From: a virus
IMG/VR virus record: IMGVR_UViG_3300020172_004459
Span: 1-36,359 of that record
DNA: 36,359 bases
Reading direction: 5' to 3' (one strand)
Below are positions 5,603-30,548 of this stretch, in pieces. The notes beneath the pieces were generated by a model. It did not search any database, was not told the DNA's origin, and saw only the letters and a list, made by a program, of their open reading frames with translations. The position numbers and the translations under genes were made by a program. Position 1 is the first letter of the stretch. Every line of letters begins with the position of its first letter.

Positions 5603-5608
5603 TAGTTA

Positions 5609-5628
5609 AAACTATTGATCAATAGTTT
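5609..5628. terminator. 20-bp perfect palindrome between convergent genes
   Basis: AAACTATTGA/TCAATAGTTT is a perfect palindrome covering the stop codon of the leftward gene and lying 6 nt after the rightward stop. An overlapping smaller repeat (AATAGTT-AA-AACTATT) starts at 5601. It probably acts as an A+T-rich bidirectional terminator; a protein-binding site is the alternative. Confidence 0.5.
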
Positions 5629-6952: not shown

Positions 6953-7517
6953 TTATCACCTTATACAGTTCTTTCCAGTTCATAACACGCTCGCCGTCCC
7001 ATTTCTTGTTATAAGCATGGTCCATAATAACACTTCGGAGACCAACTTGTTGACCGCTAACAGCATGCGATACGCTGTCTTCGATCCAAAAATAATTTTG
7101 ATTTTTATATCTTTCTGCTAGATGATCTAATTTACCTTTGGTAAAATCTAAACTACAGTCTATATAATCAAATATATCTCCGAATAGATGTCTTAGATTT
7201 CTAGCTCTTAGTTTTTGAGCGTACTTGTCGATGTGCAAGCTACTAATAACTTCAAATCTCCAACCGTCGTCGGCTAGTTTTTTAACATATTCTTGCGAAT
7301 CTCTAAAAGGAGGTAAAAACCCAACTGCTCCACTTTCGTTAAATCTTTTAACGCAGTCTAAAGCTTCGTCCTCTGGAATACCATATCTTACTGTTTGATA
7401 AAAAGTATAATCAGTATCGGGTAATCTAAGATAACCTTGTTCGGCCATCCATACATCAAATGCAAAAGCCCAATCTAATAAAACTCCGTCACAGTCAGTG
7501 ATAATTTTTTTATGCAT
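6936..7517 (-). CDS. HAD-family 5'-nucleotidase-like hydrolase
   Basis: 193 aa. HAD motif I is DCDGVLLDW at residues 8-16 (nucleophile and acid Asp); motif II is the Ser in VISSLH; motif III/IV is a Lys region followed by FWIEDS. The small cap and overall length resemble 5'(3')-deoxyribonucleotidases of the NT5C type. It probably dephosphorylates a nucleotide, feeding the adjacent DeoD, although sugar phosphates are possible. It lies between the sugar nucleotidyltransferase (8-nt overlap) and deoD. Confidence 0.8.
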   Translation of the reverse strand: MHKKIITDCDGVLLDWAFAFDVWMAEQGYLRLPDTDYTFYQTVRYGIPEDEALDCVKRFNESGAVGFLPPFRDSQEYVKKLADDGWRFEVISSLHIDKYAQKLRARNLRHLFGDIFDYIDCSLDFTKGKLDHLAERYKNQNYFWIEDSVSHAVSGQQVGLRSVIMDHAYNKKWDGERVMNWKELYKVINDSAQ

Positions 7518-8235
7518 TTCTTATAAAACGAGTTAGTTCTGGCCAGGTTCCTAAATCTATATAATCTTCTACTTCTATACCTTTGCTCAAGTATAGTGGT
7601 GTATTTTTTATTTCATCGACAGTGACTCTTTGACGCAACGTACTTTTTTCCATAAATGCAATACATTGATCGAATGCTCTTTTTCTAAATGCAAAACTAC
7701 ACCAAAAAGCATTAAACCTTTCTAATTTTTCTTCTGGCTTATCTTCATAAGTTTCAATTATGGAATCTTCAGTTACAGACAAAGCTCCTTTGGTTTTAAG
7801 CATTGCAGGATTATTTTCTTTTTTATAAAAAAATGTAAATCCCGTTTCAGTCAAACTCGATTCTATGGCTTTGAATAAATCAACCCCTGGCGATAACTGC
7901 ATTAGTGTATCTGGTAGCAACACTACATTATGTTCACCAAATAGATGCTTGGCGCTTTTTATTGCTCCGGTATATTCTTGCTCGTTGGGATTTTGATAGG
8001 TAAAACTAATATTAAATCTGTCTTTATATTTAGAAAGATATTTGACAATATCCAGTTTGAATTCGTTAAAGACTATTATAAATTCTACGTCTTTTCTACC
8101 GTAATCCTTAAAAAAATCAAATGAAAAGTCAATCAAAGATTGTCCCTCACTGACGCGAAGTATTTCTTTGGAATAAGGTAATCCAAGTCTGCTGCCTTGT
8201 CCTGCAGCCGGGATAATTACTGTAAGTTTGCTCAT
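7510..8235 (-). CDS. Sugar-phosphate nucleotidyltransferase
   Basis: 241 aa, NTP_transferase fold. The signature loop is IPAAGQGSRLG at residues 8-18, followed by YSKEIL (Lys of the pyrophosphorylase motif) and LLPDTLM, equivalent to the metal-binding Asp strand. It should make an NDP-sugar from NTP and sugar-1-phosphate (GlmU/RfbA/ManC relatives); the nucleotide and sugar are not evident. It is first in the leftward operon, lacks a Shine-Dalgarno, and has a CATAAATA octamer ending 5 nt before the ATG. Confidence 0.82.
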   Translation of the reverse strand: MSKLTVIIPAAGQGSRLGLPYSKEILRVSEGQSLIDFSFDFFKDYGRKDVEFIIVFNEFKLDIVKYLSKYKDRFNISFTYQNPNEQEYTGAIKSAKHLFGEHNVVLLPDTLMQLSPGVDLFKAIESSLTETGFTFFYKKENNPAMLKTKGALSVTEDSIIETYEDKPEEKLERFNAFWCSFAFRKRAFDQCIAFMEKSTLRQRVTVDEIKNTPLYLSKGIEVEDYIDLGTWPELTRFIRNA

Positions 8236-8240
8236 AAAGT

Positions 8241-8248
8241 TATTTATG
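8241..8248 (-). promoter_or_regulatory. Late-type promoter CATAAATA, start codon at predicted +1
   Basis: CATAAATA on the minus strand matches 7 of 8 bases of the T4 late consensus. Exactly 5 nt (ACTTT) separate it from the ATG at 8235, so a T4-like start site would be the A of that ATG. Confidence 0.6.
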
Positions 8249-8261
8249 CGCAGTTTATTCT

Positions 8262-8269
8262 ACTAAATA
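8262..8269 (+). promoter_or_regulatory. Possible weak late promoter ACTAAATA
   Basis: ACTAAATA matches the late octamer at 6 of 8 bases and lies 24 nt before the ATG at 8294. TAAAACTA at 8281-8288 also matches 6 of 8 and sits 5 nt from the ATG. Either could serve; both are weak. Confidence 0.35.
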
Positions 8270-8293
8270 TCTTACAATTTTAAAACTAAATCT

Positions 8294-9058
8294 ATGAAAA
8301 CTATTGTTCTAATTACTGGAGGGTTTGACCCTATCCATTCAGGGCACATTGCCTATCTCAACGAAGCTAGAAAGCTAGGTGACATTCTAGTAGTAGGAGC
8401 TAATTCTGATGATTGGCTAAAAAGAAAGAAAGGTAGAGAATTTATGCCTTGGGAAGAACGTGCTAGTGTACTATCGGCAATCAGCGGTGTCGATCGCGTG
8501 ATCAACTTTAACGACGATGATGGATCTGCCAAAGATGCTATCAGGAAGGTAAGAGAACTATATCCTAAAGATAAGATAGTCTTCGCCAACGGCGGAGATC
8601 GAACTGATAATAATATTCCAGAAATGGACATTCAAGATAACGATCTTAAATTTGTCTTCGGTGTAGGCGGATTCCATAAATCAAATTCTAGTTCCTGGAT
8701 CTTACAAGAATGGAAAGCACCTAAGACTGAACGTCAATGGGGTTACTATCGAGTACTACATGAAAATAGTTCAGAAGTTAAACTTAAAGAATTGACTGTG
8801 GAGCCCGGAAAACAACTCAGTATGCAGCGTCATGCTGATCGAGCTGAACATTGGTTTGTCGCAGAAGGCACCGCAACAGTCTATACCATAAACAGAAAAA
8901 GCGATTCAGAACTACTAGGAGTTTTCAATAAATTTCAGCATGTACATATCAATCGCACCGAATGGCATCAACTAGCCAATGAAGGTACAGAGCCGTTGAA
9001 GATGATTGAAATCCAATACGGTGAACGCTGTGTCGAAGAGGACATCGAACGTCGATGA
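8294..9058 (+). CDS. Cytidylyltransferase fused to a mannose-6-phosphate-isomerase-type cupin
   Basis: 254-aa two-domain protein. Residues 1-130 are an HxGH nucleotidyltransferase (TGGFDPIHSGHIAYL at 8-22, a WxxxR-type EERASVL) like glycerol-3-phosphate cytidylyltransferase or the C-terminal adenylyltransferase of HldE/RfaE. Residues 148-250 are a cupin resembling the C-terminal mannose-6-phosphate isomerase domain of ManC: WGYYRVL, LTVEPGKQLSMQRHADRAEHW, VAEGTATV. The pair may activate a sugar or polyol phosphate and isomerise a hexose phosphate. No ribosome site is seen. It ends with an overlap into the next gene. Confidence 0.82.
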   Translation: MKTIVLITGGFDPIHSGHIAYLNEARKLGDILVVGANSDDWLKRKKGREFMPWEERASVLSAISGVDRVINFNDDDGSAKDAIRKVRELYPKDKIVFANGGDRTDNNIPEMDIQDNDLKFVFGVGGFHKSNSSSWILQEWKAPKTERQWGYYRVLHENSSEVKLKELTVEPGKQLSMQRHADRAEHWFVAEGTATVYTINRKSDSELLGVFNKFQHVHINRTEWHQLANEGTEPLKMIEIQYGERCVEEDIERR

Positions 9059-9861
9059 TGAATAACTGGATTTTCCTTAGCAAGGACGGCAAAGATGAAT
9101 ACATCAATATGTTTGCCATGGGCTCTAAAGGAAGGATCATCAATACCGATGATTTTAATTATGATGACAGCGAAGATCCTATAATATTGAGAGGTATTCT
9201 CAAACATAAGATCATGAAAAAATGTTGGCTGTATGGCAGAGACTTTTATTTCATGGACACTGGATATATGGGTAATCTTCCAGGACCTCTGAATCCCATG
9301 GGATGGAAATACTGGCATCGTATAGTAAAAAATGATCTACAACATGACGAAATCATATCAAGACCTGATGATCGATTTCGCAAACTAGCCGTACCTATCC
9401 ATCGATGGAAGAAGGGCGGTCGTAAAATTCTAGTAGCCAAGCCTGATGAAAAGCCTATGAAGTTTTATGATCTAGACCTAGATCAGTGGATGGAAGAAAC
9501 TGTCAATACTATAAAACAATACACTGACCGACCTGTGGTAATCAGAGAAAGAGTCAAGAGTAGAACAGACCGAGTAGTATCTAACACTCTCAAAGAAGCT
9601 CTAGATGATGACGTACATTGCCTGGTGACATTCAACAGTAATTCAGCAACCGAAGCTGTGCTATACGGTTATCCTGCCTTTACTCTTTCATCAACACATG
9701 CTGCTAAGCCTGTGACTAGCCAAGATCTCAGCAAGATCGAAACGCCATTTTACCCAGATAAAGATTTGGTACACAGATGGGCTAGTCATTTGGCCTATGG
9801 TCAATTTCATATCAACGAACTAAAGGACGGCACTGCCTGGAGAATTTTAAATGAACAATGA
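9055..9861 (+). CDS. GT-B-like capsule-type transferase (paralogue A)
   Basis: 268 aa. The C-terminal half resembles GT-B polysaccharide transferases of the capsule or CDP-glycerol type: TIKQYTDRPVVIRER, then CLVTFNSNSATEAVLYGYPAF (loop contacting the donor), then a terminal WASHLAYGQF segment. The same pattern is in the proteins at 11311-12246 and 15229-16062, so these are paralogues. Assignment as glycosyltransferase is from fold-type motifs only. The start ATG overlaps the upstream TGA; ATG 9058 is equally possible. Confidence 0.65.
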   Translation: MMNNWIFLSKDGKDEYINMFAMGSKGRIINTDDFNYDDSEDPIILRGILKHKIMKKCWLYGRDFYFMDTGYMGNLPGPLNPMGWKYWHRIVKNDLQHDEIISRPDDRFRKLAVPIHRWKKGGRKILVAKPDEKPMKFYDLDLDQWMEETVNTIKQYTDRPVVIRERVKSRTDRVVSNTLKEALDDDVHCLVTFNSNSATEAVLYGYPAFTLSSTHAAKPVTSQDLSKIETPFYPDKDLVHRWASHLAYGQFHINELKDGTAWRILNEQ

Positions 9862-11314
9862 TATTTCAACTGTATATGTGGGGTATGATTCCCGAGAAGA
9901 AATTGCCTACAAAGTCTGTGAGTACTCGATACTAAAACATACTCCAGGTGCTGAAGTAAAACCTTTGAAACAACAGAGTCTCAAAGCTGAGAATTTTTAT
10001 TGGAGACCTGCCGATCCTCTCAGCAGTACAGAATTTACCTTCACTAGATTTCTAGTTCCCCATCTACAAAATCATGAAGGATGGGCATTGTTCTGTGACT
10101 GTGATTTTGTATGGGACGGCAATCTATCAGAATTATTTGCCATGGCTGATCCTCAATATGCAGTTATGGTAGTCAAACATGATCATCAGCCCAAGAATGA
10201 AGTTAAAATGGACGGCTGTCAGCAGGCTACCTATCCTAGAAAAAATTGGAGCAGTTGCATTCTATGGAATTGTGCTCATCCATCGCATTTAAAACTATCA
10301 TTGGAAGATATCAATACCAAGCCCGGGGCTTTCCTACACAGATTTCAGTGGTTAGAAGATCACGAGATTGGTGCCCTGGATGTGAAATACAATTTTCTAG
10401 TAGGCTGGAACGATGAAAAAGTTGACGGAAAACCTGTAGCCTATCATTGGACCGAAGGCGGACCTTGGTTTCCAAAATATAGAAACTGCGAATACAAAGA
10501 CATATGGAATCAATACCTTATCGATTATGCTACAGAAATCGGTCGAAACGTTTCTACCATAAACAATCCTATTACTTGGGTTACCAGTTTATCAAGAGAT
10601 TATTGGAATTATGCAGGACAACACACACTACCTAGCTGGGAAAATCTGCCAGGCGAAGTGGTTTTCATCTGGGATGATAAGCCTGTAGATTTAGGGTTCG
10701 GGAGAATCGTAAACTTCTACAAAGAAGTAGTTGGTCCAGGTGATCCTTGGCTGTCTGAAGGAATGGGCGGCACCAAGGCTGACCGATTCTGGAAGAAGAG
10801 TCGAGCTCAGGTATGGGCAGCGAGATCATTTAAAGGGCTAGTTGTATGGATTGACGCAGATATTACTGTCACGGAAAAGATATCTAAGACTAGAGCTTTT
10901 GAATTATTACATCCAGGCGATAAGGTATGGGCCAGCTTAGACTGCGGAGTTGATTGGCCGCACACCGATGACTGCCCTATCGACACTGGCATAGTAGTAT
11001 TCAATACCAAGCATACTGAATTTGATCGATTCATTAAAGATTATTCGCTGACTTGGTATAACGGGGACATTTATAAAGTTCCTCAACCCTACGATCATCA
11101 TGCTGCTAATTTTGTAAGACAAAAATGGGCGATGCATTCGTTCTGTCCTAATTTTAGAAATTGGGCAACAATCCCAGAAGGCTACATCAGCAGATTTGCT
11201 ATGGAAAATAGCAGTCTGAGAAATCATTTTGTTCATCATTTAGGTATAGAAAAAAAAGCCGCATTGAGTCCAGAAAATCCCGATAGAGCAATAAAGAAAA
11301 AAGAGAAAAAATGA
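9851..11314 (+). CDS. Two-domain glycosyltransferase
   Basis: 487 aa with two GT-A-like halves. The N-terminal half (residues 1-230) begins VYVGYDSREEIAYKVCEYSI and has the metal motif as FCDCDFV near 90; TYPRKNWSS and WTEGGPW are typical of GT8-related families. The C-terminal half (about 270-470) has its own strand and DxD motif, VVWIDADIT, followed by PIDTGIVVFN and YDHHAANFV. The end is a Lys-rich tail. Two catalytic centres in one chain could add two sugars in turn. It overlaps both neighbours by 4-11 nt. Confidence 0.8.
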   Translation: MNNDISTVYVGYDSREEIAYKVCEYSILKHTPGAEVKPLKQQSLKAENFYWRPADPLSSTEFTFTRFLVPHLQNHEGWALFCDCDFVWDGNLSELFAMADPQYAVMVVKHDHQPKNEVKMDGCQQATYPRKNWSSCILWNCAHPSHLKLSLEDINTKPGAFLHRFQWLEDHEIGALDVKYNFLVGWNDEKVDGKPVAYHWTEGGPWFPKYRNCEYKDIWNQYLIDYATEIGRNVSTINNPITWVTSLSRDYWNYAGQHTLPSWENLPGEVVFIWDDKPVDLGFGRIVNFYKEVVGPGDPWLSEGMGGTKADRFWKKSRAQVWAARSFKGLVVWIDADITVTEKISKTRAFELLHPGDKVWASLDCGVDWPHTDDCPIDTGIVVFNTKHTEFDRFIKDYSLTWYNGDIYKVPQPYDHHAANFVRQKWAMHSFCPNFRNWATIPEGYISRFAMENSSLRNHFVHHLGIEKKAALSPENPDRAIKKKEKK

Positions 11315-12246
11315 AAATAGTTGCCTATACCGCAGTATTGCCACCTAGCAACAAAAATGTTGAAAAGGGGCAGATACTTTATAACTTTGCACAAGGCGTT
11401 GCTAATTCTGGCGACACTATTGTTGTACACAATGAACCCACAGTAATAGACTCCGACGTGGCGTTGAGTGTTGGCTGGGTACACGAAAACAGCAAAGATA
11501 CTCCCCACCTCGTGTTTAGAAAAAAGATAATTGATCATCAATTGTCACGGAATAAAAAAATACTGCTGGCTGATTCTAATCTGTTCCTTTATAAAAATAC
11601 AGAAAATCCACTACATTATCTTAGATATAGTTTCAACGGAATTTTTCCAAATACAGGCATATACTGTGACGACAATCCAGATCCTTCGAGATGGCTTAAA
11701 ATCAGCAAGGATACTGGAGTCGATCTAAAAGATTATAGAACTACCGGCAGCCATATTCTGTTGTGCTTACAGCGCAACGGTGGTTGGAGCATGGGTGGAT
11801 ATGATGTGGTTGACTGGACCGCACAGACTATCAAAACTATTCGAAAATATTCCGACAGAGAAATTATAATAAGAGCCCACCCCGGTGATAAAGGATCAAA
11901 AAACTACCTCAGTCCAAATAATCTAATCAGAAAGATAGGAATACTAAAAGGTGTGAGATTGTCTAAACCGGAAACTACGCTAGAACGAGATTTAAAAAAC
12001 TGCTGGGCAGTAGTCAATCATAATTCAAGTCCTACAGTAGGAGCAGCTATCGAAGGTTATCCTATATTCGTAACTGATCCTCTAAGAAGTCAGTGTAAAG
12101 ATATAGCAAATCTAGACCTTAGTATGATAGAAAATCCTAACCTACCAGATAGACAGCCATGGATCGAAAGAATTTCCATGTTTCATTGGAAGTTTGACGA
12201 AATCATCAGCGGAGAATGTTGGAATCATATGAGAAAGTATGTATGA
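11311..12246 (+). CDS. GT-B-like capsule-type transferase (paralogue B)
   Basis: 311 aa. The C-terminal half carries the same motifs as the proteins at 9055 and 15229: TIRKYSDREIIIRAHPGD, then AVVNHNSSPTVGAAIEGYPIFVTDP, then LPDRQPWIERISMFHWKFDEIISG. RAHPGD and NHNSS resemble donor-binding loops of capsule (Kdo-transferase-like) and CDP-glycerol transferases. The start is ATG 11311 in an ATGA overlap. Donor and acceptor unknown. Confidence 0.7.
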   Translation: MKIVAYTAVLPPSNKNVEKGQILYNFAQGVANSGDTIVVHNEPTVIDSDVALSVGWVHENSKDTPHLVFRKKIIDHQLSRNKKILLADSNLFLYKNTENPLHYLRYSFNGIFPNTGIYCDDNPDPSRWLKISKDTGVDLKDYRTTGSHILLCLQRNGGWSMGGYDVVDWTAQTIKTIRKYSDREIIIRAHPGDKGSKNYLSPNNLIRKIGILKGVRLSKPETTLERDLKNCWAVVNHNSSPTVGAAIEGYPIFVTDPLRSQCKDIANLDLSMIENPNLPDRQPWIERISMFHWKFDEIISGECWNHMRKYV

Positions 12247-12959
12247 ACATAGAAATCATTACCAGTTTCAACGAAACGTATTATAATCTAATAGGAAAAG
12301 ATTGTGTAGACTCTTGGTTGAAATATTGGCCAAAAGAATTATCATTGACCTGTTATGTAGAAGGTTTTTCTTTACCTGAGAATAAAAGAATTAAACAGAT
12401 AGATTTTTCTTGTCTAGATCCGGCATATGAAATATTTCAAAATACCAAAGGTATAGGAGGACAAGAAAGAAAATTTGCAAAAAAATCTTTCAGCTTCATA
12501 CACGCTATGTATCACAGTACAGCCGATCGAGTAGTATGGCTAGATGCCGATGTAATAACACAAGAAAAGTTACTCTTAGATTTACTATTATCTGTTTTGC
12601 CCAATGATGTCCTAAGCACACATATGGGTGTGACGTATCTTACTAATAAAGATGGAACACCTGGCAGATGGTTCGTTCCTGAAACAGGATTTTTTGCTGT
12701 CAACACTAGACATGTTAAATTTGATCAGTTTAGATCTGAATATCGTAGGAGATTTGTTGATCATGATAGTTCAAACCTAAGAAGATATTATGATAATGAT
12801 GTCTACGGATATGTTGTAGAACAAATCGGAGCAAAAGTATTGGATCTTTGTAAAGATTTTAAGAAACCCTATAAAACACCGTTAAAGCATACAGTGTTAG
12901 GTCCTTATCTACATCATTATAAGGCCAAAGGCGCCAAAGCCGACTACGCTACCGACTAA
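12243..12959 (+). CDS. GT-A-type glycosyltransferase-like protein (paralogue 2)
   Basis: 238 aa from ATG 12243, which overlaps the upstream TGA. Paralogous to the protein at 4850: TSFNETYYNLIGKDCVDSW, KYWPKELSLTCYVEGF, and the metal motif VWLDADV. The C-terminus (LGPYLHHYKAKGAK) differs from the other copies. Last gene of the rightward run from 8294; its stop overlaps the convergent third paralogue by 11 nt. Confidence 0.78.
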   Translation: MNIEIITSFNETYYNLIGKDCVDSWLKYWPKELSLTCYVEGFSLPENKRIKQIDFSCLDPAYEIFQNTKGIGGQERKFAKKSFSFIHAMYHSTADRVVWLDADVITQEKLLLDLLLSVLPNDVLSTHMGVTYLTNKDGTPGRWFVPETGFFAVNTRHVKFDQFRSEYRRRFVDHDSSNLRRYYDNDVYGYVVEQIGAKVLDLCKDFKKPYKTPLKHTVLGPYLHHYKAKGAKADYATD

Positions 12960-13767
12960 TCCAATATTTTTCAGTTCTAGGTTTAATAAAATCTGTTCTA
13001 GCACTTTTTCCAGTGTTTTTGCGATTGCCTTTGAGATGATCAAGATAAGCACCCCATTCGGAGTTTACCAAAGGATGTCCTTCACCTTTGATTAGACCTC
13101 GGCACCAGTCATTCCATTGCCAGTCAGGATGTTGTTTTTTGATTTCTTTACGAACTTCATCAAATACCCAACAGTCGTTCCATTCACTGAATTGAAATAA
13201 TCTGCCTGTATCATAGGCTCTTTGGAATTCAAATAAAAATTTCTGAGTATTAGGATCTCGTAAGTTCATAGAATACAGACCGCATTCTGTAAACTTTTTT
13301 TCTCTGCCTAAAAATCCTAGACCAATATGGGGTTGACTCATCTTTTCGATAAAATGATGAGGTATCGATGTATGACAGACCATGTCTGCATCCATCCAGA
13401 ACAACAGATCAGCGTCTGTATTTTGAGCTGCGTGACAAACAGAATATACCTTATGACTGAAGCGTATAGCATCCCATCGAAACCCTATACCTGGCTGTTT
13501 ACCCTTGCGATCAGCAGGTCCAGTGGCTACTTTTCCCAAAGCTCTAGGATCATTACCCCATTTTTTCTTAAATGCTACTAGGTCGGAGCAGGAGCTGTGT
13601 AGATCTCTTACTACAAGATTCGTTCCCGTTTCAGTAATTTCATGATCTTCGGGATATACATACAGTGTGATATCTGAAGGCCAGTTCTGTAAAAATGTCT
13701 GGATCATTCTCCTTCCATATTTTTCGTAGCCTTCTCTGTGGAAGGTAGTTACCACAGCTTTTTTCAT
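12949..13767 (-). CDS. GT-A-type glycosyltransferase-like protein (paralogue 3)
   Basis: 272 aa. The N-terminus VVTTFHREGYEKYGRRMIQTF then NWPSDITLYVYPEDHE follows the pattern of the copies at 4850 and 12243. The metal motif is FWMDADM near residue 125, followed by GLYSMNLRDP where the others have a GFF(M/A) strand. The start ATG overlaps the upstream gmd stop (TAATG), so it is coupled to GDP-deoxysugar synthesis; a GDP-sugar donor is a reasonable guess. Confidence 0.75.
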   Translation of the reverse strand: MKKAVVTTFHREGYEKYGRRMIQTFLQNWPSDITLYVYPEDHEITETGTNLVVRDLHSSCSDLVAFKKKWGNDPRALGKVATGPADRKGKQPGIGFRWDAIRFSHKVYSVCHAAQNTDADLLFWMDADMVCHTSIPHHFIEKMSQPHIGLGFLGREKKFTECGLYSMNLRDPNTQKFLFEFQRAYDTGRLFQFSEWNDCWVFDEVRKEIKKQHPDWQWNDWCRGLIKGEGHPLVNSEWGAYLDHLKGNRKNTGKSARTDFIKPRTEKYWISR

Positions 13768-14747
13768 TATTTGCTATATCTCTTGATGTCGGCCTCAACC
13801 ATCATTTTAACAAGACCGTCGAAATCTGTGCGACGTTTCCAGCCTAGTACCTTTTCTGCCTTAGTAGGATCTCCACACAAGCTGTGTAATTCTGCAGGAC
13901 GTACAAATGCTGGATTGGTTTCGATGTAGCTTTGCCAATTATCAATACCGGCATATTTAAATGCACGTTCTAATAGATCACCAATAGTATATTGTACTCC
14001 GGTGGCAATAACATAATCACCAGGTTGATCTTGTTGTAGCATCAACCACATGGCTTCAACGAAATCACCGGCAAATCCCCAATCACGTTTCGCATCTAAA
14101 TTGCCTAGCACGATTTTATCTTGTAGACCCATTTTAATACGGGCAACACCGTCTGTGATTTTTCTAGTAACAAATTCTTTTCCTCGAATAGGCGATTCGT
14201 GATTAAACAAAATACCATTCGATGCATGTAGACTATAACTTTCACGGAAATTTACAGTCATCCAGTAAGCATACAACTTAGCAACACCATAGGGACTGCG
14301 CGGCCAGAAGGGAGTTTTTTCGTCTTGCTTTCCGCCTGAAATTTCGATACTGTTTCCAAACATTTCTGAGGTACTGGCCTGATAATATTTGGTATCGGGG
14401 TTGTGCTGTTTAATAGCATTGAGAATGTTTAACACTCCGACGGCATTTACTTCAGTGGTCATTTTGTTGAGATCCCAACTGGCTCCAACAAAACTCTGAG
14501 CAGCAAGATTATAAAACTCGTTTGGACGAATAGATTTCACTAAATGATTCATACAGCCATCGTCTGTGATATCACCAGTAATTAGTTCTAAGTTATTTTC
14601 GATTCCTAGAAATTTAATATTATCGAGATTGGGATTTGAATATCTTTTTACCAGACCGTAGACTTTGTAGTCTTTTTCTAAAAGCAATTTTGCTAAGTAG
14701 GGGCCATCTTGTCCAGTCATGCCCGTAACGAATGCTATTTTTTTCAT
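13767..14747 (-). CDS. gmd: GDP-mannose 4,6-dehydratase
   Basis: 326 aa, slightly shorter than bacterial Gmd. It converts GDP-D-mannose to GDP-4-keto-6-deoxy-mannose, the precursor of fucose, rhamnose and perosamine. Diagnostic blocks: TGMTGQDG at 8-15 (NADP binding), NLAAQSFVGASW, QASTSEMFG (catalytic Ser/Thr and Glu), SPYGVAKLYAYW (Tyr and Lys) and NHESPIRGKEFVTRKI. AGGATC precedes the ATG and an AATAAATA late-type octamer lies 27 nt upstream. No reductase or epimerase for the next step is obvious unless the SDR at 3888 supplies it. Confidence 0.94.
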   Translation of the reverse strand: MKKIAFVTGMTGQDGPYLAKLLLEKDYKVYGLVKRYSNPNLDNIKFLGIENNLELITGDITDDGCMNHLVKSIRPNEFYNLAAQSFVGASWDLNKMTTEVNAVGVLNILNAIKQHNPDTKYYQASTSEMFGNSIEISGGKQDEKTPFWPRSPYGVAKLYAYWMTVNFRESYSLHASNGILFNHESPIRGKEFVTRKITDGVARIKMGLQDKIVLGNLDAKRDWGFAGDFVEAMWLMLQQDQPGDYVIATGVQYTIGDLLERAFKYAGIDNWQSYIETNPAFVRPAELHSLCGDPTKAEKVLGWKRRTDFDGLVKMMVEADIKRYSK

Positions 14748-20565: not shown

Positions 20566-21019
20566 ATTTAAACTAAAAGACATTCTTGCAGCCATTGATC
20601 TTGACGGCAAGGAAGTCTGGGATGAACTCACCGACGAGCAGAAAAAAAGTGTGGTGTTTTTTACCTTGAATAGATATATTTCAAATGTGCAAGGAAGCCG
20701 AGAATTAAAAGAACACTATCTCCTAGTAGGAAACGAAAGATTTAATAAAAATCTTTTCTCAGTCATGAGCAAACATCCGAAACTTACATGGCAACTAGCA
20801 TGTTCTTGTAGCCACGAAAGTCGAAAGATTCAGTATCATGAATGGTTAGGAGTGAAAAAAGAAAAAAATAAAAAGGTTTCTTTTCTCGCAGAACTTTTTC
20901 CTAACATGAAAATCAGCGATGTTGAAACGCTAGCAGAGATAACCACTGATAAAGAAATCAAACAATATTGTGAATCATTAGGTTGGGATAAAAAACAGAT
21001 ACATGCAATCAAGCTATAA
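20555..21019 (+). CDS. Unknown phage protein
   Basis: 154 aa, mostly helical, basic. Distinctive blocks: FKLKDILAAIDLDGKEVWDELTDEQKKSVVFFTLNRYIS, KHPKLTWQLACSC and FLAELFPNMK. I cannot assign it; by position beside the zinc-finger protein and UvsW it may be a replication accessory factor. It does not resemble T4 gp62. Confidence 0.72.
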   Translation: MSNEFKLKDILAAIDLDGKEVWDELTDEQKKSVVFFTLNRYISNVQGSRELKEHYLLVGNERFNKNLFSVMSKHPKLTWQLACSCSHESRKIQYHEWLGVKKEKNKKVSFLAELFPNMKISDVETLAEITTDKEIKQYCESLGWDKKQIHAIKL

Positions 21020-21686
21020 ATGCGAATATTGCCAGAAAGAGTTTGTCAAAGAAAAAACTTTGGCTGTGCATGTCTGCGAACAAAAACGTAGACACTTGAG
21101 CAAAACAGAAAAACATGTTCAGGCTGGCCTGTTGACATATCAGAGATTTTATGATATAACACAAAAAGGCAAGAATAAAAAAACATTCGATGATTTTGCT
21201 GAAAGTCCGTACTATACTGCCTTTGTAAAATTTGGTAGTTTTTTAGTCAACACTTCACCGGTATATCCAGAAAGGTTTATTGACTTTGTTATAAAAAGCG
21301 GAGTGAAGTTAGATCACTGGTGCCGAGATGAGTTGTATTATACCTATGTTACTGATTTGATCAAATCGGAGCCTGCTGACGGAGCGATCCAGAGATCTAT
21401 TAAAACTATGATGGACTGGGGTGACAGCAATACGGCATCATGGGAACATTATTTTCAATATGTAAATCTAAATCGAGCCACACATGATATTAGAGAAGGA
21501 TTAGTTAGTCCTTGGTTAGTGTTAAATACCAAGTCAGGCAAAGATATGTTAAAACGTATGAATGATGAACAGTTAGAAATCATTTCCCCGATTATCGATC
21601 CGCAACATTGGATGCGTAGATTCAAATCATTGCCTGCTGATGTAGAATTAGTCAAAGATATCATCAAGGAGGCTAAGATACTGTGA
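21003..21686 (+). CDS. Zinc-finger protein, probable DNA-associated
   Basis: 227 aa. The N-terminus is a C2H2/C3H-type finger: YKCEYCQKEF, 9 residues, then HVCEQKRRH (Cys at 7 and 10, His and Cys near 23-25, further His). The remainder is helical with TFDDFAESPYYTAFVKFG and VSPWLVLN. A single finger at the N-terminus of a helical phage protein suggests nucleic-acid binding, but the target is unknown. The start ATG 21003 lies inside the upstream gene. Confidence 0.78.
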   Translation: MQSSYKCEYCQKEFVKEKTLAVHVCEQKRRHLSKTEKHVQAGLLTYQRFYDITQKGKNKKTFDDFAESPYYTAFVKFGSFLVNTSPVYPERFIDFVIKSGVKLDHWCRDELYYTYVTDLIKSEPADGAIQRSIKTMMDWGDSNTASWEHYFQYVNLNRATHDIREGLVSPWLVLNTKSGKDMLKRMNDEQLEIISPIIDPQHWMRRFKSLPADVELVKDIIKEAKIL

Positions 21687-21913
21687 TGACCCGAAAACCT
21701 AAAGAAGAACCAGTTGTAGAAGAGTTAGCAGAAAATGAAGAATTTATTTCAAGAGATGATATTGACATCGAAGTAATGAGTACCTATGATGATCAGCCAG
21801 CAGTCTATGTTAAATTCACAGGATTTGACGATGAGGAAGATGCAGAAGAGTATGCTAATTTTTTAGCAGAAACGCTTCCTTTATTATTATTTGAAAGCAC
21901 GAGATTACAGTAA
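21686..21913 (+). CDS. Small acidic protein
   Basis: 75 aa. The ATG at 21686 overlaps the upstream stop as TGATG; GTG 21683 is the alternative. Strongly acidic (EEPVVEELAENEEF, DDEEDAEEYANFL). Unknown function; it immediately precedes the mini-DnaE gene (TAATG overlap), so the two are co-translated. Confidence 0.75.
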   Translation: MTRKPKEEPVVEELAENEEFISRDDIDIEVMSTYDDQPAVYVKFTGFDDEEDAEEYANFLAETLPLLLFESTRLQ

Positions 21914-22491
21914 TGCCTGACATTGATATAGATTTTGTTGACAGAGAACAAGCACTGAGCCTATTCAATGCGACGGTCGCCAGCAGGATCGATAATGATA
22001 GATTAATCAAACATAATACTGGAATATATCTACATAAGGTTCCTGTGGATCCAATCTCGGGACTTTGTTCTATAGACTACGAGTCGGCCGAAGAACAAGG
22101 TTACTTTAAAATAGATTTTCTAAACGTAGGTATGTATAAAGGAGTTCGCGACGAAGAGCATCTTATTCAATTGATGAATACAGAACCTTTATGGGATCTT
22201 CTAGAACAAGACGACTTTAGTAATCTGCTTTTTCATGTAAACGGACACGGTTCGATACTAAGACAAATGAAACCTAAAAGCATAGAACAATTGGCAGCGA
22301 TTATCGCAATGATACGCCCGGCCAAAAGACATCTAATAGGAAAATCGTGGGACGATGTAATAATAGAAGTTTGGACTAAGCCTACGAACAAAGAATACTA
22401 TTTTAAGAAAAGTCATGCCACAGCCTATGCAGTAGCCATAGTTGTGCAGATGAACCTAATCTGTGAAAGCATTAGTTATGGGTATCAATAA
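21913..22491 (+). CDS. Miniature DnaE-like (DNA polymerase III alpha) protein
   Basis: 192 aa. Its three conserved blocks match bacterial DnaE in order. PDIDIDF at residues 2-8 equals the DnaE PDxDxDF motif holding two catalytic Asp. YFKIDFLNV around 64-72 equals VKFDFLGL, with the third Asp (68). VNGHGSILRQMKPKSIEQLAAIIAMIRP equals the fingers block, and KKSHATAYA around 165-173 equals NKSHAAAYA. About 60 residues replace the roughly 150 between the catalytic motifs of DnaE, and there is no PHP, tau-binding or OB domain. A phage with a T4 layout is expected to have its own family-B polymerase, so the role is unclear: accessory, decoy or terminal transferase. Confidence 0.75.
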   Translation: MPDIDIDFVDREQALSLFNATVASRIDNDRLIKHNTGIYLHKVPVDPISGLCSIDYESAEEQGYFKIDFLNVGMYKGVRDEEHLIQLMNTEPLWDLLEQDDFSNLLFHVNGHGSILRQMKPKSIEQLAAIIAMIRPAKRHLIGKSWDDVIIEVWTKPTNKEYYFKKSHATAYAVAIVVQMNLICESISYGYQ

Positions 22492-22985
22492 TGGCTAAAA
22501 TAAAGAACCCATTGCCGATGACCGTAGAGTGGAAAGGATCTAATGGTAGAGAATTTTATCTTGACAATCAGATCAAAAAAAATAAATGGTCTATCGGTGC
22601 AGAAGTTGGTGTAAGATTCGGGAGAACTTTATTTTATCTCTTAGACAACAATCCTAGACTACAAATGTATGCTATAGATATAGATATCTCTCAATTTTAT
22701 TCTTCTCAGATAAAGGAAAAATACGGAGATCGTATTATCGCATTAGAAGGAAATAGTTCTCTAGTAGCTGAACATATTCTTACAAAATTAGATTTTGTTT
22801 TTATAGACGGAGCACACAGTTATAAGGCTGTGATGAAAGACTTAAAAGCCTATGCTCCAAAAGTCAAACAAAAGTGCGGATTGCTAGGGCATGATATCGA
22901 TTATCCATCAATACAGAAAGCATTGAAAGATTCTTCAATAGATTATGAAGTTGGGCCGGATAACGTATGGCAGCAAAAAATCTAG
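22491..22985 (+). CDS. Class I SAM-dependent methyltransferase
   Basis: 164 aa. SAM motif I reads IGAEVGVRFGRTLFYLL, followed by MYAIDIDI (acidic end of strand 2), FIDGAHSYKAVMKDLKAY (motif IV with Asp and His, as in Methyltransf_24 and TylF-type O-methyltransferases) and GLLGHDIDYPSI. Likely an O-methyltransferase on a sugar or small molecule. It begins TAATG after the mini-DnaE and ends in a terminator shared with a convergent gene. Confidence 0.82.
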   Translation: MAKIKNPLPMTVEWKGSNGREFYLDNQIKKNKWSIGAEVGVRFGRTLFYLLDNNPRLQMYAIDIDISQFYSSQIKEKYGDRIIALEGNSSLVAEHILTKLDFVFIDGAHSYKAVMKDLKAYAPKVKQKCGLLGHDIDYPSIQKALKDSSIDYEVGPDNVWQQKI

Positions 22986-22994
22986 CTGCTTTTT
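22970..22994 (+). terminator. Rho-independent terminator
   Basis: A GCAGC/GCTGC stem with a 10-nt A-rich loop is followed by five T residues (22990-22994). It overlaps the methyltransferase stop and closes the uvsW operon. The stem is short. Confidence 0.55.
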
Positions 22995-23353
22995 CTCACT
23001 AACGTAATTGATTTACGTTTAATACGTTTTACAATAATATCGTTTAGGCTAGTACAGGGACCTAAAACTACCTTTACATCTTTAGTGCTAAAATTTCTAA
23101 TAGCGTATCTAAAGTCTATTATATCTTTGTTTAAGAAGATATTGATAGGAATCTGTCTGTTAGATTCCCACCACCAAATTTCGCCTAGTTCTAAAAACTT
23201 TTTCTTTTCATCGTCAGAGCGTATGCTGGCGTAATCATACATACTAGTCACCTGAGCATCTTGGTTGATAACGATGCCCACATACTCTTGGGCTACATGT
23301 GTTAAAACCGATATAAAAGGAAAATTTTCCTGTAAGTTTTCTGTGATTCTCAT
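22982..23353 (-). CDS. Unknown phage protein
   Basis: 123 aa from ATG 23353; an in-frame TTG at 23386 is less likely because it would run into the divergent gene. The order is RITENLQENFPFISVLTH, VGIVINQDAQVTSMYDY, LGEIWWWESNRQIPINIFL, KVVLGPCTSLNDI, ending basic. It looks like a conserved T4-type marine phage protein, from memory; no function known. It is the only leftward gene in the replication block. Confidence 0.72.
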   Translation of the reverse strand: MRITENLQENFPFISVLTHVAQEYVGIVINQDAQVTSMYDYASIRSDDEKKKFLELGEIWWWESNRQIPINIFLNKDIIDFRYAIRNFSTKDVKVVLGPCTSLNDIIVKRIKRKSITLVRKSS

Positions 23354-23354
23354 A

Positions 23355-23362
23355 GATAAATA
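23355..23362 (+). promoter_or_regulatory. Late-type promoter GATAAATA
   Basis: GATAAATA (7 of 8 to the late consensus) lies 18 nt before the ATG at 23381, which has an AAAGG ribosome site. It fits late expression of a structural-type gene placed among early replication genes. Confidence 0.6.
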
Positions 23363-23380
23363 TTGCAAAGGTAAGCTAAC

Positions 23381-24211
23381 ATGCAACTAAATTCTGTTTA
23401 TTTATATCCAAACAAAGTCGATGTATTTACTAATTCTTTGGCTACCTGGCAAAAAGAGAGGTATCGCAGAGTGTATAATCGAAACTTAAAAATCTATCGT
23501 GGGTGTGATAACCGTGTTGATCTTCAGGTAAGAAATTCAGATGAAAAATCGCAGGATATATCAACTAGACCTTATATAGTGTTTAATCTTATCAATAAAG
23601 AAACTCAAGAACTTGTTCTGCAAAAAGACTGTGAAATCGCCAGTGCAAGTGGCGGTAAAGCCTATGTTATTATTACTGAGATAGAAATGACGGCTATTGA
23701 AACAGGGTATTATCATTTTTCTCTGCATTCAGAAACTAGAACAATGGTCGGCAATTATCACACTGTATCAGCCAGAACCCCATTATATGTTGATTCGCAG
23801 TACGGCACATTTGGCATTGTTGAAGTTGGGCAACATCTAATGGGAGAACCCTTAGATAGTCTTAGAATTGATGAATTCAAAGAAGTTATAGTCAGTGCAT
23901 CGGCCACTGTAGTAACTGACAAGCATTATTTCAGCAGTATAATAGATGCTAAACCTAATTTAACTGTACCGGCTTCTGTACATACGTTTCAGTTTAATAT
24001 GAGTAGCTATCATGGCGAAATTGAAGTTCAAGCCAGTCAAGACGAGGGAGCTGACCCTCAAGTTTGGGCAACTGTATCTACTACAACTGCCGATAACGAT
24101 TCGATACTTTATGGAAACGTTATTGGCAAATATAGTTGGTTTAGAATTAAACATACGCCCGATTTAACTCAAAATAACCCAGGAAGCCTTGACGAAATAT
24201 TGTACAGATAG
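23381..24211 (+). CDS. Probable virion structural protein
   Basis: 276 aa. The N-terminus (VYLYPNKVDVFTN, RVYNRNLKIYRGCDNRVDLQVRNSDEK) and YVDSQYGTFGIVEVG resemble proteins annotated as virion structural in T4-type cyanophages. The beta-rich composition with an Ig-like C-terminal half (FQFNMSSYHGEIEVQASQDEG) supports a tail or baseplate role. The late promoter in front agrees. The assignment rests on memory of family patterns, not a search. Confidence 0.6.
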   Translation: MQLNSVYLYPNKVDVFTNSLATWQKERYRRVYNRNLKIYRGCDNRVDLQVRNSDEKSQDISTRPYIVFNLINKETQELVLQKDCEIASASGGKAYVIITEIEMTAIETGYYHFSLHSETRTMVGNYHTVSARTPLYVDSQYGTFGIVEVGQHLMGEPLDSLRIDEFKEVIVSASATVVTDKHYFSSIIDAKPNLTVPASVHTFQFNMSSYHGEIEVQASQDEGADPQVWATVSTTTADNDSILYGNVIGKYSWFRIKHTPDLTQNNPGSLDEILYR

Positions 24212-24223: not shown

Positions 24224-25252
24224 ATGACCCTGGTCGTAGACAAATTTCGTTTATTATTACCTCCTAGAACAAAATCCAGCCCCAGCGGTTGGACATCGTT
24301 TAACGCTCCCTGCTGTCAGCATCGAGGACATAAACCAGATACTAGAAAGCGGGCAGGCATCCGCTTTGACGGTAATGGTATAGTTTATAATTGTTTTAAT
24401 TGTAAATTTTCAACAGGATGGCAACCTGGATCACCGTTTGGTGAAAAGATGAAAACCCTAGCTCGATGGATGAGCGCAGGCGAAGATCTGATTAAAGAAC
24501 TAGTATTTGAAGCTCTTAAAACCGAGGGCGAAGAATATCATCCTGAACAACAACAACCTAAAATAGAATTTACAGATAAAGAACTGCCCGAAGGAGCTAT
24601 GTCTTTGTTAGATTGGGTCAACAGTGATTATTTCAAAGATATTAGTCAAGAACTAGAACCGGTGATTTCCTATATCGTTAGCCGAGGTCATGACCCGTTC
24701 GATGGTAACTTTTTTTGGAGTCCGTCTCCCGGTTACGAAAGTCGAGTAATTATTCCTTTTCGTTGGCAAGGACGTATAGTCGGTAATACTGCAAGAAAAA
24801 TTACTGTAGGTAAACCAAAATATCTTTCCGATCATCATAGTCATTTTGTTTTTAACTTTGATCAACAGTCCGAAGATCAGAGATACACATTTGTTTGCGA
24901 AGGCCCGTTCGATGCTCTTAGTATTAGCGGAGTAGCCCTTCTCACTAACGATATAGCTGAGCAACAGGCTAGGATAATTACTAGTCTAAGCAATGAAGTT
25001 ATAGTAATCCCAGATCAAGATCGTGCAGGTCTCGCACTGTTTGATAGAGCCAGCGAATTAAATTGGGCTGTGGCGATGCCTACATGGGATTCCGATGTTA
25101 AAGATGTTGCTGAAGCTGTACAGAGATATGGTAAACTATTTGTTGTAGTCGATGCCATTAAAACCGCACAGCGAGGCACTATTAAAATCAATATGGCCAA
25201 GAAGCAACAAGAACAAAAAATTGAGAGAGCAGAATATGAAAAAAATAATTGA
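24224..25252 (+). CDS. 61: DNA primase, T4 gp61 type
   Basis: 342 aa. It synthesises RNA primers with the gp41 helicase. An N-terminal zinc-ribbon: Cys30/Cys31, His33/His36, Cys57 and Cys60 (CCQHRGH, then NCFNC). The Toprim core shows VCEGPFDALS with the catalytic Glu and VIVIPDQDRAG with the metal-binding Asp pair. A Lys/Gln-rich C-terminus overlaps a 37-aa gene. Its own strong promoter suggests early expression. Confidence 0.92.
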   Translation: MTLVVDKFRLLLPPRTKSSPSGWTSFNAPCCQHRGHKPDTRKRAGIRFDGNGIVYNCFNCKFSTGWQPGSPFGEKMKTLARWMSAGEDLIKELVFEALKTEGEEYHPEQQQPKIEFTDKELPEGAMSLLDWVNSDYFKDISQELEPVISYIVSRGHDPFDGNFFWSPSPGYESRVIIPFRWQGRIVGNTARKITVGKPKYLSDHHSHFVFNFDQQSEDQRYTFVCEGPFDALSISGVALLTNDIAEQQARIITSLSNEVIVIPDQDRAGLALFDRASELNWAVAMPTWDSDVKDVAEAVQRYGKLFVVVDAIKTAQRGTIKINMAKKQQEQKIERAEYEKNN

Positions 25253-26326: not shown

Positions 26327-26937
26327 TGGATAGAAATAATCTTTATGTCTGTGGAAACCAATTCGTTCTGGACTGCGAATATGCAGACTATGAAGATTTT
26401 TTAGATATGATTCCTGACAGTCCGGGATTAGATTACAGTAGCGAAACGTCGGCATTTAATGCCGGACAGTATCCTATGTGGAGAGATCCTGTAGCATCAA
26501 AAGCGATCAACCATCGACAATACACAGATGACGAGCTAGTTCAAAATTCTCGTTGGAATACTGCTTTTGAGAAATTGATAAAATGGACTCAAAAAAAACT
26601 TGCTGCAAATCGAATTTATACAGAAATAGTCCCTGCAGTCAGTTGGATGATGGATTATCGAGAACACGGATGGCAGACTGTACACAGTCACGGAAGAAAG
26701 TGTATCAGTCAAGTTCTGTATACAGAAGCCAGTGTTGATCAAACAGACGACGGAAAAAGTTTTCTACATGGAGCTATGTTTGCATTTATGAATGACGGAC
26801 AACCACCGTTCTATCGAGCTTTTCCTGCCAAGGCCGGCCAGTGTATAATAATAAAAGGAGATGTATTCCATGGAGTTTATCCGGTGAAACTAACACCGCG
26901 TAGATGTCTAGTAGTGGACTATTTGATATTACAATGA
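26323..26937 (+). CDS. 2OG-Fe(II) oxygenase-like protein
   Basis: 204 aa. A probable double-stranded beta-helix core: WQTVHSHGRKCISQVLYTE (HxH/HxD-type ligand region), then AGQCIIIKGDVFHGVYPVKLTPRRCLVVDYL (distal His and 2OG-binding Arg). The spacing fits the 2OG-Fe(II) oxygenase families frequent in marine phages. The ligand triad is read by eye. It overlaps both neighbours by ATGA, ahead of the helicase. Confidence 0.6.
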   Translation: MMDRNNLYVCGNQFVLDCEYADYEDFLDMIPDSPGLDYSSETSAFNAGQYPMWRDPVASKAINHRQYTDDELVQNSRWNTAFEKLIKWTQKKLAANRIYTEIVPAVSWMMDYREHGWQTVHSHGRKCISQVLYTEASVDQTDDGKSFLHGAMFAFMNDGQPPFYRAFPAKAGQCIIIKGDVFHGVYPVKLTPRRCLVVDYLILQ

Positions 26938-28358
26938 TAAAAGATTACGGAACAGAAGTACAAAAATTATATCTTGAACTAATGCTGGCAGATGCTGAAG
27001 TATTTGTTAGATGTCAAGGTATATTTGATCATACTTTATTTGATCGAAAATTACAGGATGCTGCAGAGTTCATCAATGAATACGCTAAAAAATATTCAGT
27101 TCTGCCAGACTATGAAATGGTCAATGCCACATGCAGAACAGATCTTCATCGTCCAGAGGAAGCCAAAGAAGGGCATCTCGAATGGCTTATGGATGAATTT
27201 GAATCCTTTACTAGGCACAAAGCTCTAGAACGTGCGATCATCGATAGTGCAGATCTGTTAGAAAAGAATGACTACGGTGCTGTTGAAGTCATGATCAAAG
27301 AAGCAGTTCAGATTGGTCTAGCCAAGGACATGGGCACTGATTATTTCGCTGATCCTAGAAGTCGATTGCTACGCATCAAAGACAAAAATGGTCAGATCAG
27401 TACTGGATGGCCCAGTCTTGATCGCAGGCTGTTTGGTGGTATGAACAGAGGTGAATTGAATATATTTGCGGGCGGATCAGGTGCAGGTAAGAGTTTATTC
27501 TTGGCTAATCTCGGAGTGAACTGGGCATTGCAAGGATTAAATGTAGTCTATCTTACTCTTGAGCTCTCGGAAGATCTAGTCTGTATGCGTATGGATGCAA
27601 TGACTACTGGTATCCATACCAAAGAAATTTTCAAAGAACTAGATGATGTGGAAATGAAAGTTCGGATCATAGGAAAGAAATCAGGAGCATATCAAGTCAA
27701 GTATATGCCCAGCGGTAAGACTGCCAATGACATTCGTGCATATCTCAAAGAGTATGAAATCAAAACTTCTAGAAAGGTAGATGTACTGTTAGTAGACTAT
27801 CTAGATTTGCTCATGCCAATCTCTAAGAAAATTTCACCTGCGGACTTGTTCATCAAGGACAAATATGTCAGTGAAGAACTGAGAAATCTAGCTGTAGAAC
27901 GTCAATGTATATTGGTCACAGCCGCACAGTTAAATCGAGGTGCTGTAGAAGAAGTTGAGTTCGATCACAGTCATATCTCGGGCGGTCTGTCAAAGATACA
28001 GACTGCGGATAATGTGTTTGGTATCTTTACTAGTAGAGCAATGCGTGAAAGAGGAAGATATCAAATACAGTTGATGAAGACACGTTCTAGTTCCGGCGTT
28101 GGACAAAAAGTAGATCTTGAATTCAATCTTGAAACTTTAAAAATTACAGATCTACCCGAAGACGAACAAGAGCATAGTGGGGCTACTTCTAGAGGAGCCA
28201 GCAGTATCATTGACAGTATTAAAAATCGCAGTACCGTACAAACAGTCGATGATGCCAGCGATCCCAGCAAAGGTATCAGCATAGGAAAAGTCAGAGCCAA
28301 TGTAGAGAGTACCAAGCTGAGAGAAATTCTCAACAATATGAACAGCGATGAAGAGTAA
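26934..28358 (+). CDS. 41: Replicative DNA helicase, T4 gp41 type
   Basis: 474 aa DnaB-superfamily hexameric helicase that unwinds the fork 5' to 3' with the primase. The N-terminal helical domain (1-135) is followed by a RecA-like motor: Walker A AGGSGAGKS at 179-187, YLTLELSEDLV, Walker B VDVLLVDYLDLL, and TAAQLNRGAVEE with SHISGG. I place the start at ATG 26934, which overlaps the preceding TGA; ATG 26904 would overlap by 34 nt. Confidence 0.93.
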   Translation: MIKDYGTEVQKLYLELMLADAEVFVRCQGIFDHTLFDRKLQDAAEFINEYAKKYSVLPDYEMVNATCRTDLHRPEEAKEGHLEWLMDEFESFTRHKALERAIIDSADLLEKNDYGAVEVMIKEAVQIGLAKDMGTDYFADPRSRLLRIKDKNGQISTGWPSLDRRLFGGMNRGELNIFAGGSGAGKSLFLANLGVNWALQGLNVVYLTLELSEDLVCMRMDAMTTGIHTKEIFKELDDVEMKVRIIGKKSGAYQVKYMPSGKTANDIRAYLKEYEIKTSRKVDVLLVDYLDLLMPISKKISPADLFIKDKYVSEELRNLAVERQCILVTAAQLNRGAVEEVEFDHSHISGGLSKIQTADNVFGIFTSRAMRERGRYQIQLMKTRSSSGVGQKVDLEFNLETLKITDLPEDEQEHSGATSRGASSIIDSIKNRSTVQTVDDASDPSKGISIGKVRANVESTKLREILNNMNSDEE

Positions 28359-29313: not shown

Positions 29314-29878
29314 AACTCAATGTAATTCTTGATCGAGTTTGGTTGACTTCTGTTGAATGTTCAAGCCAGCTAGGAAACAATATCAATAATCCTGTTTCGC
29401 AGGGCATGTCTATGAAATTAGCACTAACAGAATTTTCTGTTCTTACATCTTCGTGCATTCTTAGTGATGCTAACGGACTGTAAAATCTTAAAGCAGCACT
29501 GCCTTCGTCGGCATGTAGATATAATGCTCCGGATACCACGCTCATCTCGTGACGATGATTATCTACTCGTTGACCAACACCAAGGTCGTTGAACCAGCTA
29601 TTAGTGATCTTTACTGAGGCCACTCCTAGCTCACTGACATAATCGTTGACTGACTCTTGTAGGCGAGACCGAATGCCTGCGAATCTGACATCATTTAGAA
29701 TGTTTTTTTCAGTACCGTAACTGCTGACTGCGCCCGGTAAAAGTCGATGTGATTCGGTTTTTTCTGTAGATATGAAATCAGCAAGGCCCTTGATATCGGG
29801 ATCCTTGCTGAAGTCGTAGTGTGCTATCAGTGTGGGAAATAATGCAAACTTGTTCAAGTTACTCGTTTCTGCTGCCAA
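29297..29878 (-). CDS. 2OG-Fe(II) oxygenase
   Basis: 193 aa; resembles putative 2OG-Fe(II) oxygenase family 5. Motifs: FPTLIAHYDF at the start, SWFNDLGVGQRVDNHRHEMSVVSGALYLHA (iron ligands), then GLLILFPSWLEHSTEVNQTRSRITLSFN (third His and Arg for 2OG). Such phage enzymes are abundant in marine T4-like viruses but substrates are mostly unknown. It overlaps the downstream end of the Bax-inhibitor gene by 20 nt and is probably translated from its mRNA. Confidence 0.85.
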   Translation of the reverse strand: MAAETSNLNKFALFPTLIAHYDFSKDPDIKGLADFISTEKTESHRLLPGAVSSYGTEKNILNDVRFAGIRSRLQESVNDYVSELGVASVKITNSWFNDLGVGQRVDNHRHEMSVVSGALYLHADEGSAALRFYSPLASLRMHEDVRTENSVSANFIDMPCETGLLILFPSWLEHSTEVNQTRSRITLSFNTDY

Positions 29879-30548
29879 ACAACTGTAATAGATTTAAGAA
29901 GATGTTGATGAAATCCATATAGAGAGTCAATGCTCCAAGAACTTCTAGTTTACCATCATTTTCCATAGTGACCATGTTACGGATGTTCTGTGTGTCATAG
30001 GCTGTCAGCCCTAGAAAGATCACAATAGCCACGGCTGAAATCACCATAGTCATTACTGAACTGCCGATAAAGATGTTGATGATGCTGGCTATGATAATAG
30101 CAATCAGTCCCACGAACATGAACTGTCCCATGCTGGTTAAATCACGTTTAGTAAAATAACCATAAAAACTCATAACAGCAAACAACACCGCGGCTGACAT
30201 GAACGCTGAGAAAATACTGGTTGCTGTATAGACTACGAAAATAGCACTGAAGCTGAGACCCATTAGAGCCGCAAACCCGTGCAAGAATGCAGTCAGTGTA
30301 GATTTGCTCATCTTGTCAAAGGCAAACCCTGCGACCAATATCACCACCAGGGGGGCAAACATCACGATCCATTTCATGGCACCCGTGAATAAAAACGCCA
30401 TCAGTGCAGGCGAACTGGATACCAATAGGCTAACGATCATGCTGGTCAACACAGCTAGGCCCATATGTTTATAAACCCTGGCCATGGCTTCATTGATCTG
30501 TGAAGCAGAACGCCATACTGCGGATCCTGCATAAGATGTATCGAACAT
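29859..30548 (-). CDS. Bax inhibitor-1 family (TMBIM/YccA/YetJ) membrane protein
   Basis: 229 aa, about seven transmembrane segments from residue 28 to the C-terminus. The signature is in the last third: FLGLTAYDTQNIRNM, then LYMDFINIFLNLLQLFG, holding the two conserved Asp of the pH-sensing, calcium-leak centre known from BsYetJ. The N-terminal 27 residues are cytoplasmic. AAGGAG precedes the ATG and a perfect consensus sigma70 promoter lies upstream, so strong early expression is expected. Bacterial relatives interact with membrane proteases (YccA with FtsH), giving one possible phage role. Confidence 0.9.
   Translation of the reverse strand: MFDTSYAGSAVWRSASQINEAMARVYKHMGLAVLTSMIVSLLVSSSPALMAFLFTGAMKWIVMFAPLVVILVAGFAFDKMSKSTLTAFLHGFAALMGLSFSAIFVVYTATSIFSAFMSAAVLFAVMSFYGYFTKRDLTSMGQFMFVGLIAIIIASIINIFIGSSVMTMVISAVAIVIFLGLTAYDTQNIRNMVTMENDGKLEVLGALTLYMDFINIFLNLLQLFGSRNE

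Follow-up and report, generated by a model that had tools for sequence, protein, structure and literature searches.

The 36-kb viral fragment analysed here (hereafter the window) carries on its plus strand, at positions 21913-22491, an ATG-initiated open reading frame of 192 codons that is a real gene under purifying selection, with a median dN/dS of 0.068 among pairs of similar genes of the family. Judging by its motifs, profile matches and predicted fold, the encoded protein is a homologue of bacterial DNA polymerase III alpha (C family) that corresponds to its palm and part of its fingers, and constitutes one half of a split polymerase, namely the C-terminal subunit on the metal and template side, rather than a self-contained shrunken enzyme. 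This kind of polymerase has already been published, as the 'minimal split PolIII alpha' of group 2.2 jumbo phages (Iyer et al., 2021; PMC7824862), and the window provides an additional divergent member. Its existence was predicted in 2021, and the proposal that a single functional active site arises from two distant genes lends itself to direct testing.

Catalytic motifs and reduced architecture

The motifs shared by the 192-residue protein and E. coli DnaE follow one another in the same order in both, all being encoded on the plus strand of the window. PDIDIDF (residues 2-8, positions 21916..21936), with Asp5 and Asp7, aligns to PDFDVDF at E. coli 400-406 and makes up the first palm strand (predicted at residues 4-8), directly 3' of the split point. 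KHNTG (residues 33-37, 22009..22023) corresponds to KHAGG (E. coli 510-514), and KIDFL (residues 66-70, 22108..22122, on a strand predicted at 67-71), which holds the third catalytic residue Asp68 and an invariant Lys66, corresponds to KFDFLGL (553). A fingers-derived block (residues 109-138, 22237..22326), related to DnaE by phmmer and hmmsearch, aligns to positions 50-78 of PF17657 and ends with IAMIRPAK, where RPAK at residue 135 is the counterpart of RPGP at E. coli 639. Finally, KKSHATAY (residues 165-172, 22405..22428) corresponds to NKSHSAAY, whose NKSH lies at E. coli 757. The same series (PDxDxDF, KHxxG, KxDFL, a fingers block ending in RP, and a KSH helix) is common to Pol III alpha of known structure (PDB 2hnh, 4iqj, 7pu7).

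An earlier note on this DNA had described a DnaE-like protein of 192 residues with PDIDIDF, KIDFL, a fingers block and KKSH in DnaE order, and with three catalytic aspartates retained. The alignment to E. coli DnaE bears this out, although the list of motifs, correct as far as it went, overlooked KHNTG/KHAGG. Both catalytic aspartates of the C-family PDxDxDF motif and the one of KxDFL are present, on predicted palm strands, and Asp5, Asp7 and Asp68 are invariant in an alignment of 72 sequences from diverse relatives. The invariant columns of this alignment also include D3, I6, H34, N35, G37 and K66, and likewise R135, P136, K138, K165 and H168. The three aspartates are kept even in the distant members SCTP-2, Vibrio phage 2.275.O, Slicko01, XacN1 and CM1.

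Asp7 and Asp68 lie 61 residues apart, whereas their E. coli equivalents are separated by about 150, in agreement with the spacing of roughly 60 against 150 that had been noted before. The shortening reflects loss of the thumb, which, by the domain boundaries of the 2006 DnaE structures, is inserted between PDxDxDF and KHxxG. Only 31 residues separate these two motifs in the 192-residue protein, versus 110 in E. coli DnaE, so that about 79 residues are absent at the position of the thumb. Another 88 or so residues of the fingers are absent between RPxx and xKSH relative to E. coli, while the block at 109-138 and the KKSH helix are kept. The chain starts at the palm, profile searches gave no PHP match in it, and the PHP and C-terminal domains are missing from both halves of the enzyme. 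Unlike E. coli DnaE, the protein also has no GS motif (GxGRGSxxGS) upstream of PDxDxDF, since it begins at (M)PDIDIDF; in relatives this motif is found in the partner gene.

Kinship with the C family is supported by profiles and by predicted structure. The strongest match is to phrog_11778, the family profile of this half, labelled 'DNA polymerase' (E=2.8e-72 over residues 3-186), followed by phrog_405 (E=5.8e-9), a profile that matches E. coli DnaE along its whole length. The PF17657 fingers profile gave 16.4 bits, under its cut-off of 22 bits, and Pfam alone is therefore insufficient to settle the matter. With a profile of the family itself, nine genuine DnaE proteins all score higher than 450 shuffled sequences. 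A single-sequence phmmer search of the PDB gave weak results, as did an hhalign comparison of the C-half alignment with E. coli DnaE (probability 2.9%), the partner half faring better in the same comparison (88%).

AlphaFold2 predicts both halves with confidence (pLDDT 91.8 and pTM 0.79 for the 192-residue half, 90.7 and 0.69 for the partner). When the predicted folds were searched against the PDB, Pol III alpha entries took every one of the first 12 places for the 192-residue half (best E=4.4e-4, probability 1.00). The partner's sixteen leading hits were Pol III alpha, PolC, or entries titled just 'DNA polymerase'. Above background, both halves match C-family polymerases only. The earlier note had named lack of a significant HMM match to DnaE as a reason to abandon its reading; the profile matches and the fold search show the opposite. 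The TM scores are modest rather than strong (0.3-0.5), as would be expected if large insertions are absent.

The split junction and the partner half

In the complete relatives searched, PF07733 matches the partner gene up to profile position 95-98 only, and it matches the product of 21913-22491 only from about position 86-99 onward. The partner (phrog_11127) is a protein of about 155-200 residues; among 75 sequences recovered by motif, all contain G(V/I/L)GRGSSVAS and 70 end in EFLR. E. coli DnaE reads GPGRGS...FERFLN-PERVS-MPDFDVDF across the corresponding region, FERFLN ending at residue 393 and PDFDVDF starting at 400. Since the partner stops at EFLR and the other half starts at PDIDIDF, the chain is cut, between the counterparts of FERFLN and PDFDVDF, within the short link that joins the GS segment to the catalytic strand.

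A profile joining partner and 192-residue half in native order, with rows paired by their order in the two alignments and not by genome, gives alignments that run across the junction in nine bacterial DnaEs. It outscores the reversed order by 15-20 bits (E. coli 38.5 versus 23.6; best 76.9 versus 56.9), whereas none of 450 shuffled sequences scores above about 5 bits with it. The shrunken C-family core proposed in the earlier note is upheld as regards homology and reduction, but what had been taken for a whole core is half of an enzyme whose GS motif half is a separate gene.

We found more than 550 relatives of the 192-residue protein in viral contigs. A phage collection yielded 103 matching records; in 89 the match spans 80% or more of the query, and most carry the annotation 'hypothetical protein' or 'DNA polymerase'. 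Each half is present in exactly one copy in all ten complete named phages tested (Atu_ph07, Phosso, Paride, RaK2, 121Q, SCTP-2, XacN1, Slicko01, CM1 and Vibrio phage 2.275.O, the record of the last being titled a partial genome). The same holds for all twelve IMG/VR records that reach 345 kb, RaK2 and Atu_ph07 accounting for two of these as well. The two halves are gp411 and gp373 in RaK2, and gp074 and gp316 in Atu_ph07. By record coordinates, the distance between the halves ranges from 11 kb in Slicko01 to over 200 kb in Phosso. Records with one half alone are all of 280 kb or less and are probably fragments. The genome of Slicko01 measures 141 kb, hence the pair is not limited to jumbo phages.

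The window itself contains no suitable ORF with a GS motif, no PF07733 match and no match to the partner alignment, nor did we find a B-family polymerase in it. The pair is thus documented in relatives rather than in this phage itself, although in a fragment of 36 kb neither absence weighs against it. The closest relatives of its protein (79% identity) are on short contigs, and a 270-kb contig (G003, locus L045) whose homologue is 71% identical carries both halves. Identity is 54-56% to Atu_ph07 and 46% to RaK2, and spans 37-57% over the named or divergent members compared. The window protein belongs to a metagenomic lineage in which we found no cultured member.

Among the loci fetched there was no phage form with the two halves fused in one gene, the only ORFs with both motifs being bacterial DnaEs, and a profile scan of bacterial genome contigs for the minimal form gave eight full-length DnaE genes only. 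The one Streptomyces phage match inspected, Danzina, is likewise a full-length DnaE. The search for defence systems returned no match. A DnaQ-like exonuclease was considered as an obligate companion and rejected, because just 9 of 18 records contain one that scores over the cut-off for its family.

Proposed role of the pair and alternative readings

Homology leads us to propose that the 192-residue protein is probably the subunit on the catalytic-metal and template side of a C-family DNA polymerase that consists of two proteins and is devoid of thumb and PHP domain. Its partner, encoded far off near the clamp loader gene, would contribute the GS motif and the helices that hold the triphosphate of the incoming dNTP. 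The two halves would fold together into one Pol-beta-type palm, as in a single DnaE chain, and nucleotide transfer would proceed by the usual two-metal mechanism through Asp5, Asp7 and Asp68, with the small fingers-derived block facing the template. The sequences show homology, colinearity, a complementary split, conserved active-site residues and co-occurrence in relatives, and from these we infer physical assembly, catalysis and biological role of the pair.

With no thumb, such an enzyme should be distributive and need recruitment, which fits gap filling, primer handover or repair; synthesis of short patches at the call of other replisome parts would be the most likely task. A B-family polymerase is encoded in all 17 large records examined, and the presence of this replicase in the same phages makes the C-family enzyme probably accessory. 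In relatives, the partner gene lies near a gp44-like clamp loader gene and the gene of the other half upstream of a primase and a DnaB-like helicase, the latter arrangement being found in the window as well. A fuller picture, in which two distantly encoded proteins form an active site in trans, with neither thumb nor PHP domain, as an accessory to the B-family replicase and possibly with a zinc-finger-like third subunit, is offered tentatively, our confidence in it being somewhat short of even.

The two halves could also assemble and yet have been diverted from template-directed DNA synthesis to another task, for instance template-independent tailing, nucleotide signalling or a supporting part in repair. 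Such a change of function would agree with the absence of the thumb and of half of the fingers, parts that grip duplex DNA, and with the possession of a full B-family replicase; conservation of the fingers block and the KKSH helix, and of a replisome neighbourhood with primase, helicase and clamp loader, argues against it, and we regard repurposing as unlikely, although it deserves consideration. The earlier note had mentioned an accessory nucleotidyl transferase as one possibility. Read as a stand-alone enzyme, the 192-residue protein would bind NTP and metal and transfer nucleotides to DNA, RNA or protein without a partner. The protein does keep all three metal-binding aspartates and is confidently predicted to fold by itself, but its chain is without the triphosphate-binding GS motif, and the half that bears this motif is separately encoded and co-occurs in every complete genome tested, making this reading improbable.

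The decoy that had likewise been suggested, or more generally a catalytically dead scaffold for host or phage replication factors, would suit the small size of the protein and an activity so far deduced rather than demonstrated. A scaffold would nevertheless need none of the residues that are conserved across divergent phages, namely Asp5, Asp7, Asp68, Lys66 and His34 on this half, the metal ligands being invariant, and the GS motif on the partner; we therefore consider it very improbable. The shortening relative to DnaE might raise the suspicion of a degenerate remnant, or of an intron or split intein interrupting the gene. These readings can practically be dismissed given purifying selection (dN/dS about 0.07), halves whose clean ends coincide and abut with no extra sequence to house intein halves, and no fused phage version in any locus fetched.

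Should the halves of the proposed split polymerase indeed restore a single active site, the enzyme would be a C-family polymerase of very small size, with about 360 residues in two chains compared with 1160 in E. coli. It would then be a naturally occurring test case for the parts of Pol III alpha that are required for chemistry, help explain the second polymerase of T4-like jumbo phages that have their own B-family replicase, and represent a two-part enzyme whose activity could be switched on by mixing.

Relation to known systems and genes of the window

The window protein belongs to the same family as that of group 2.2: the proteins are orthologous, with the same two-gene split, distant genes and a B-family polymerase in the same phages. 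The available passages of the 2021 paper (PMC7824862) already describe the partner half as a separate, distant gene in related large phages with a B-family polymerase alongside, and do not give the exact junction residues or the lineage of the window. What we add to that description is where exactly the chain is cut, which half bears which catalytic motif, how often the halves occur together, support from the predicted folds, and one carrier (141 kb) that is not a jumbo phage. A literature search covering few subscription journals returned no experimental study of the pair.

Truncated Pol III alpha had been noticed before, in CBB_328 and Atu_ph07 gp316 (PMC5259590, PMC6102473). Atu_ph07 gp316, near the clamp loader gene, is the GS motif partner half and not the half found in the window, and CBB_328, of 172 residues and four genes from the gp44 homologue CBB_332, is very probably a partner half too. 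The window-type half is a 'hypothetical protein' in many deposited records.

C-family polymerases spread over more than one gene also occur in actinophages (Mycobacterium phage Onyinye gp82/84, Microbacterium phage Potty gp55/56, Gordonia phage Terapin gp65/67). We rejected these as instances of the same split: in the loci of all three phages (L257, L258 and L260) the break separates PHP from palm, around E. coli residues 270-317, and leaves the active site in one chain. In Onyinye and Terapin a small gene lies between the DnaE pieces. The boundaries of phrog_12219, phrog_7513 and phrog_13169 relative to E. coli DnaE (start at 399; end at 397-401) hint that other phage lineages may have DnaE halves of full size that are separated where those of the window family are.

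The T4-like context put forward in the earlier note is confirmed by a replication and recombination set in the window, comprising gp32-like single-stranded DNA-binding protein, UvsX, UvsW, primase and gp41-like helicase genes. The T4 gp61-like DNA primase (24224..25252, plus strand; phrog_47, E=5.1e-28) is placed in the same order in Atu_ph07, Phosso, Paride, RaK2 and 121Q, and the DnaB/gp41-like replicative helicase lies at 26904..28358 (plus strand; phrog_19, E=2.5e-70). In 116 of 121 loci a zinc-finger-like protein (phrog_11058; 21003..21686 in the window, plus strand) is encoded some 1 kb upstream of the gene for the polymerase half, and it is a possible candidate for a partner or third subunit. 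It has an N-terminal C-x2-C...H-x-C stretch and shares 34% identity along its length with its counterpart in Pseudomonas phage Paride. Downstream of the polymerase half, a convergent gene (22982..23386, minus strand) is conserved in 115 of 121 loci, including RaK2 and 121Q. Between the two sits, in the window, a Methyltransf_24-type methyltransferase gene (22491-22985, plus strand; E=6.4e-14) with relatives in only 4 of 121 loci.

The window also encodes a Bax1-I (Bax inhibitor-1/TMBIM family) membrane protein (29859-30548, minus strand; PF01027, E=4.9e-54), an unusual cargo for a phage. A block of sugar and nucleotide genes at 3888-14747 includes two nucleotide-sugar epimerases, a family 8 glycosyltransferase, an NTP_transferase, a heptose kinase/adenylyltransferase-like protein and a PNP_UDP_1 phosphorylase, a content that suggests surface-sugar modification.
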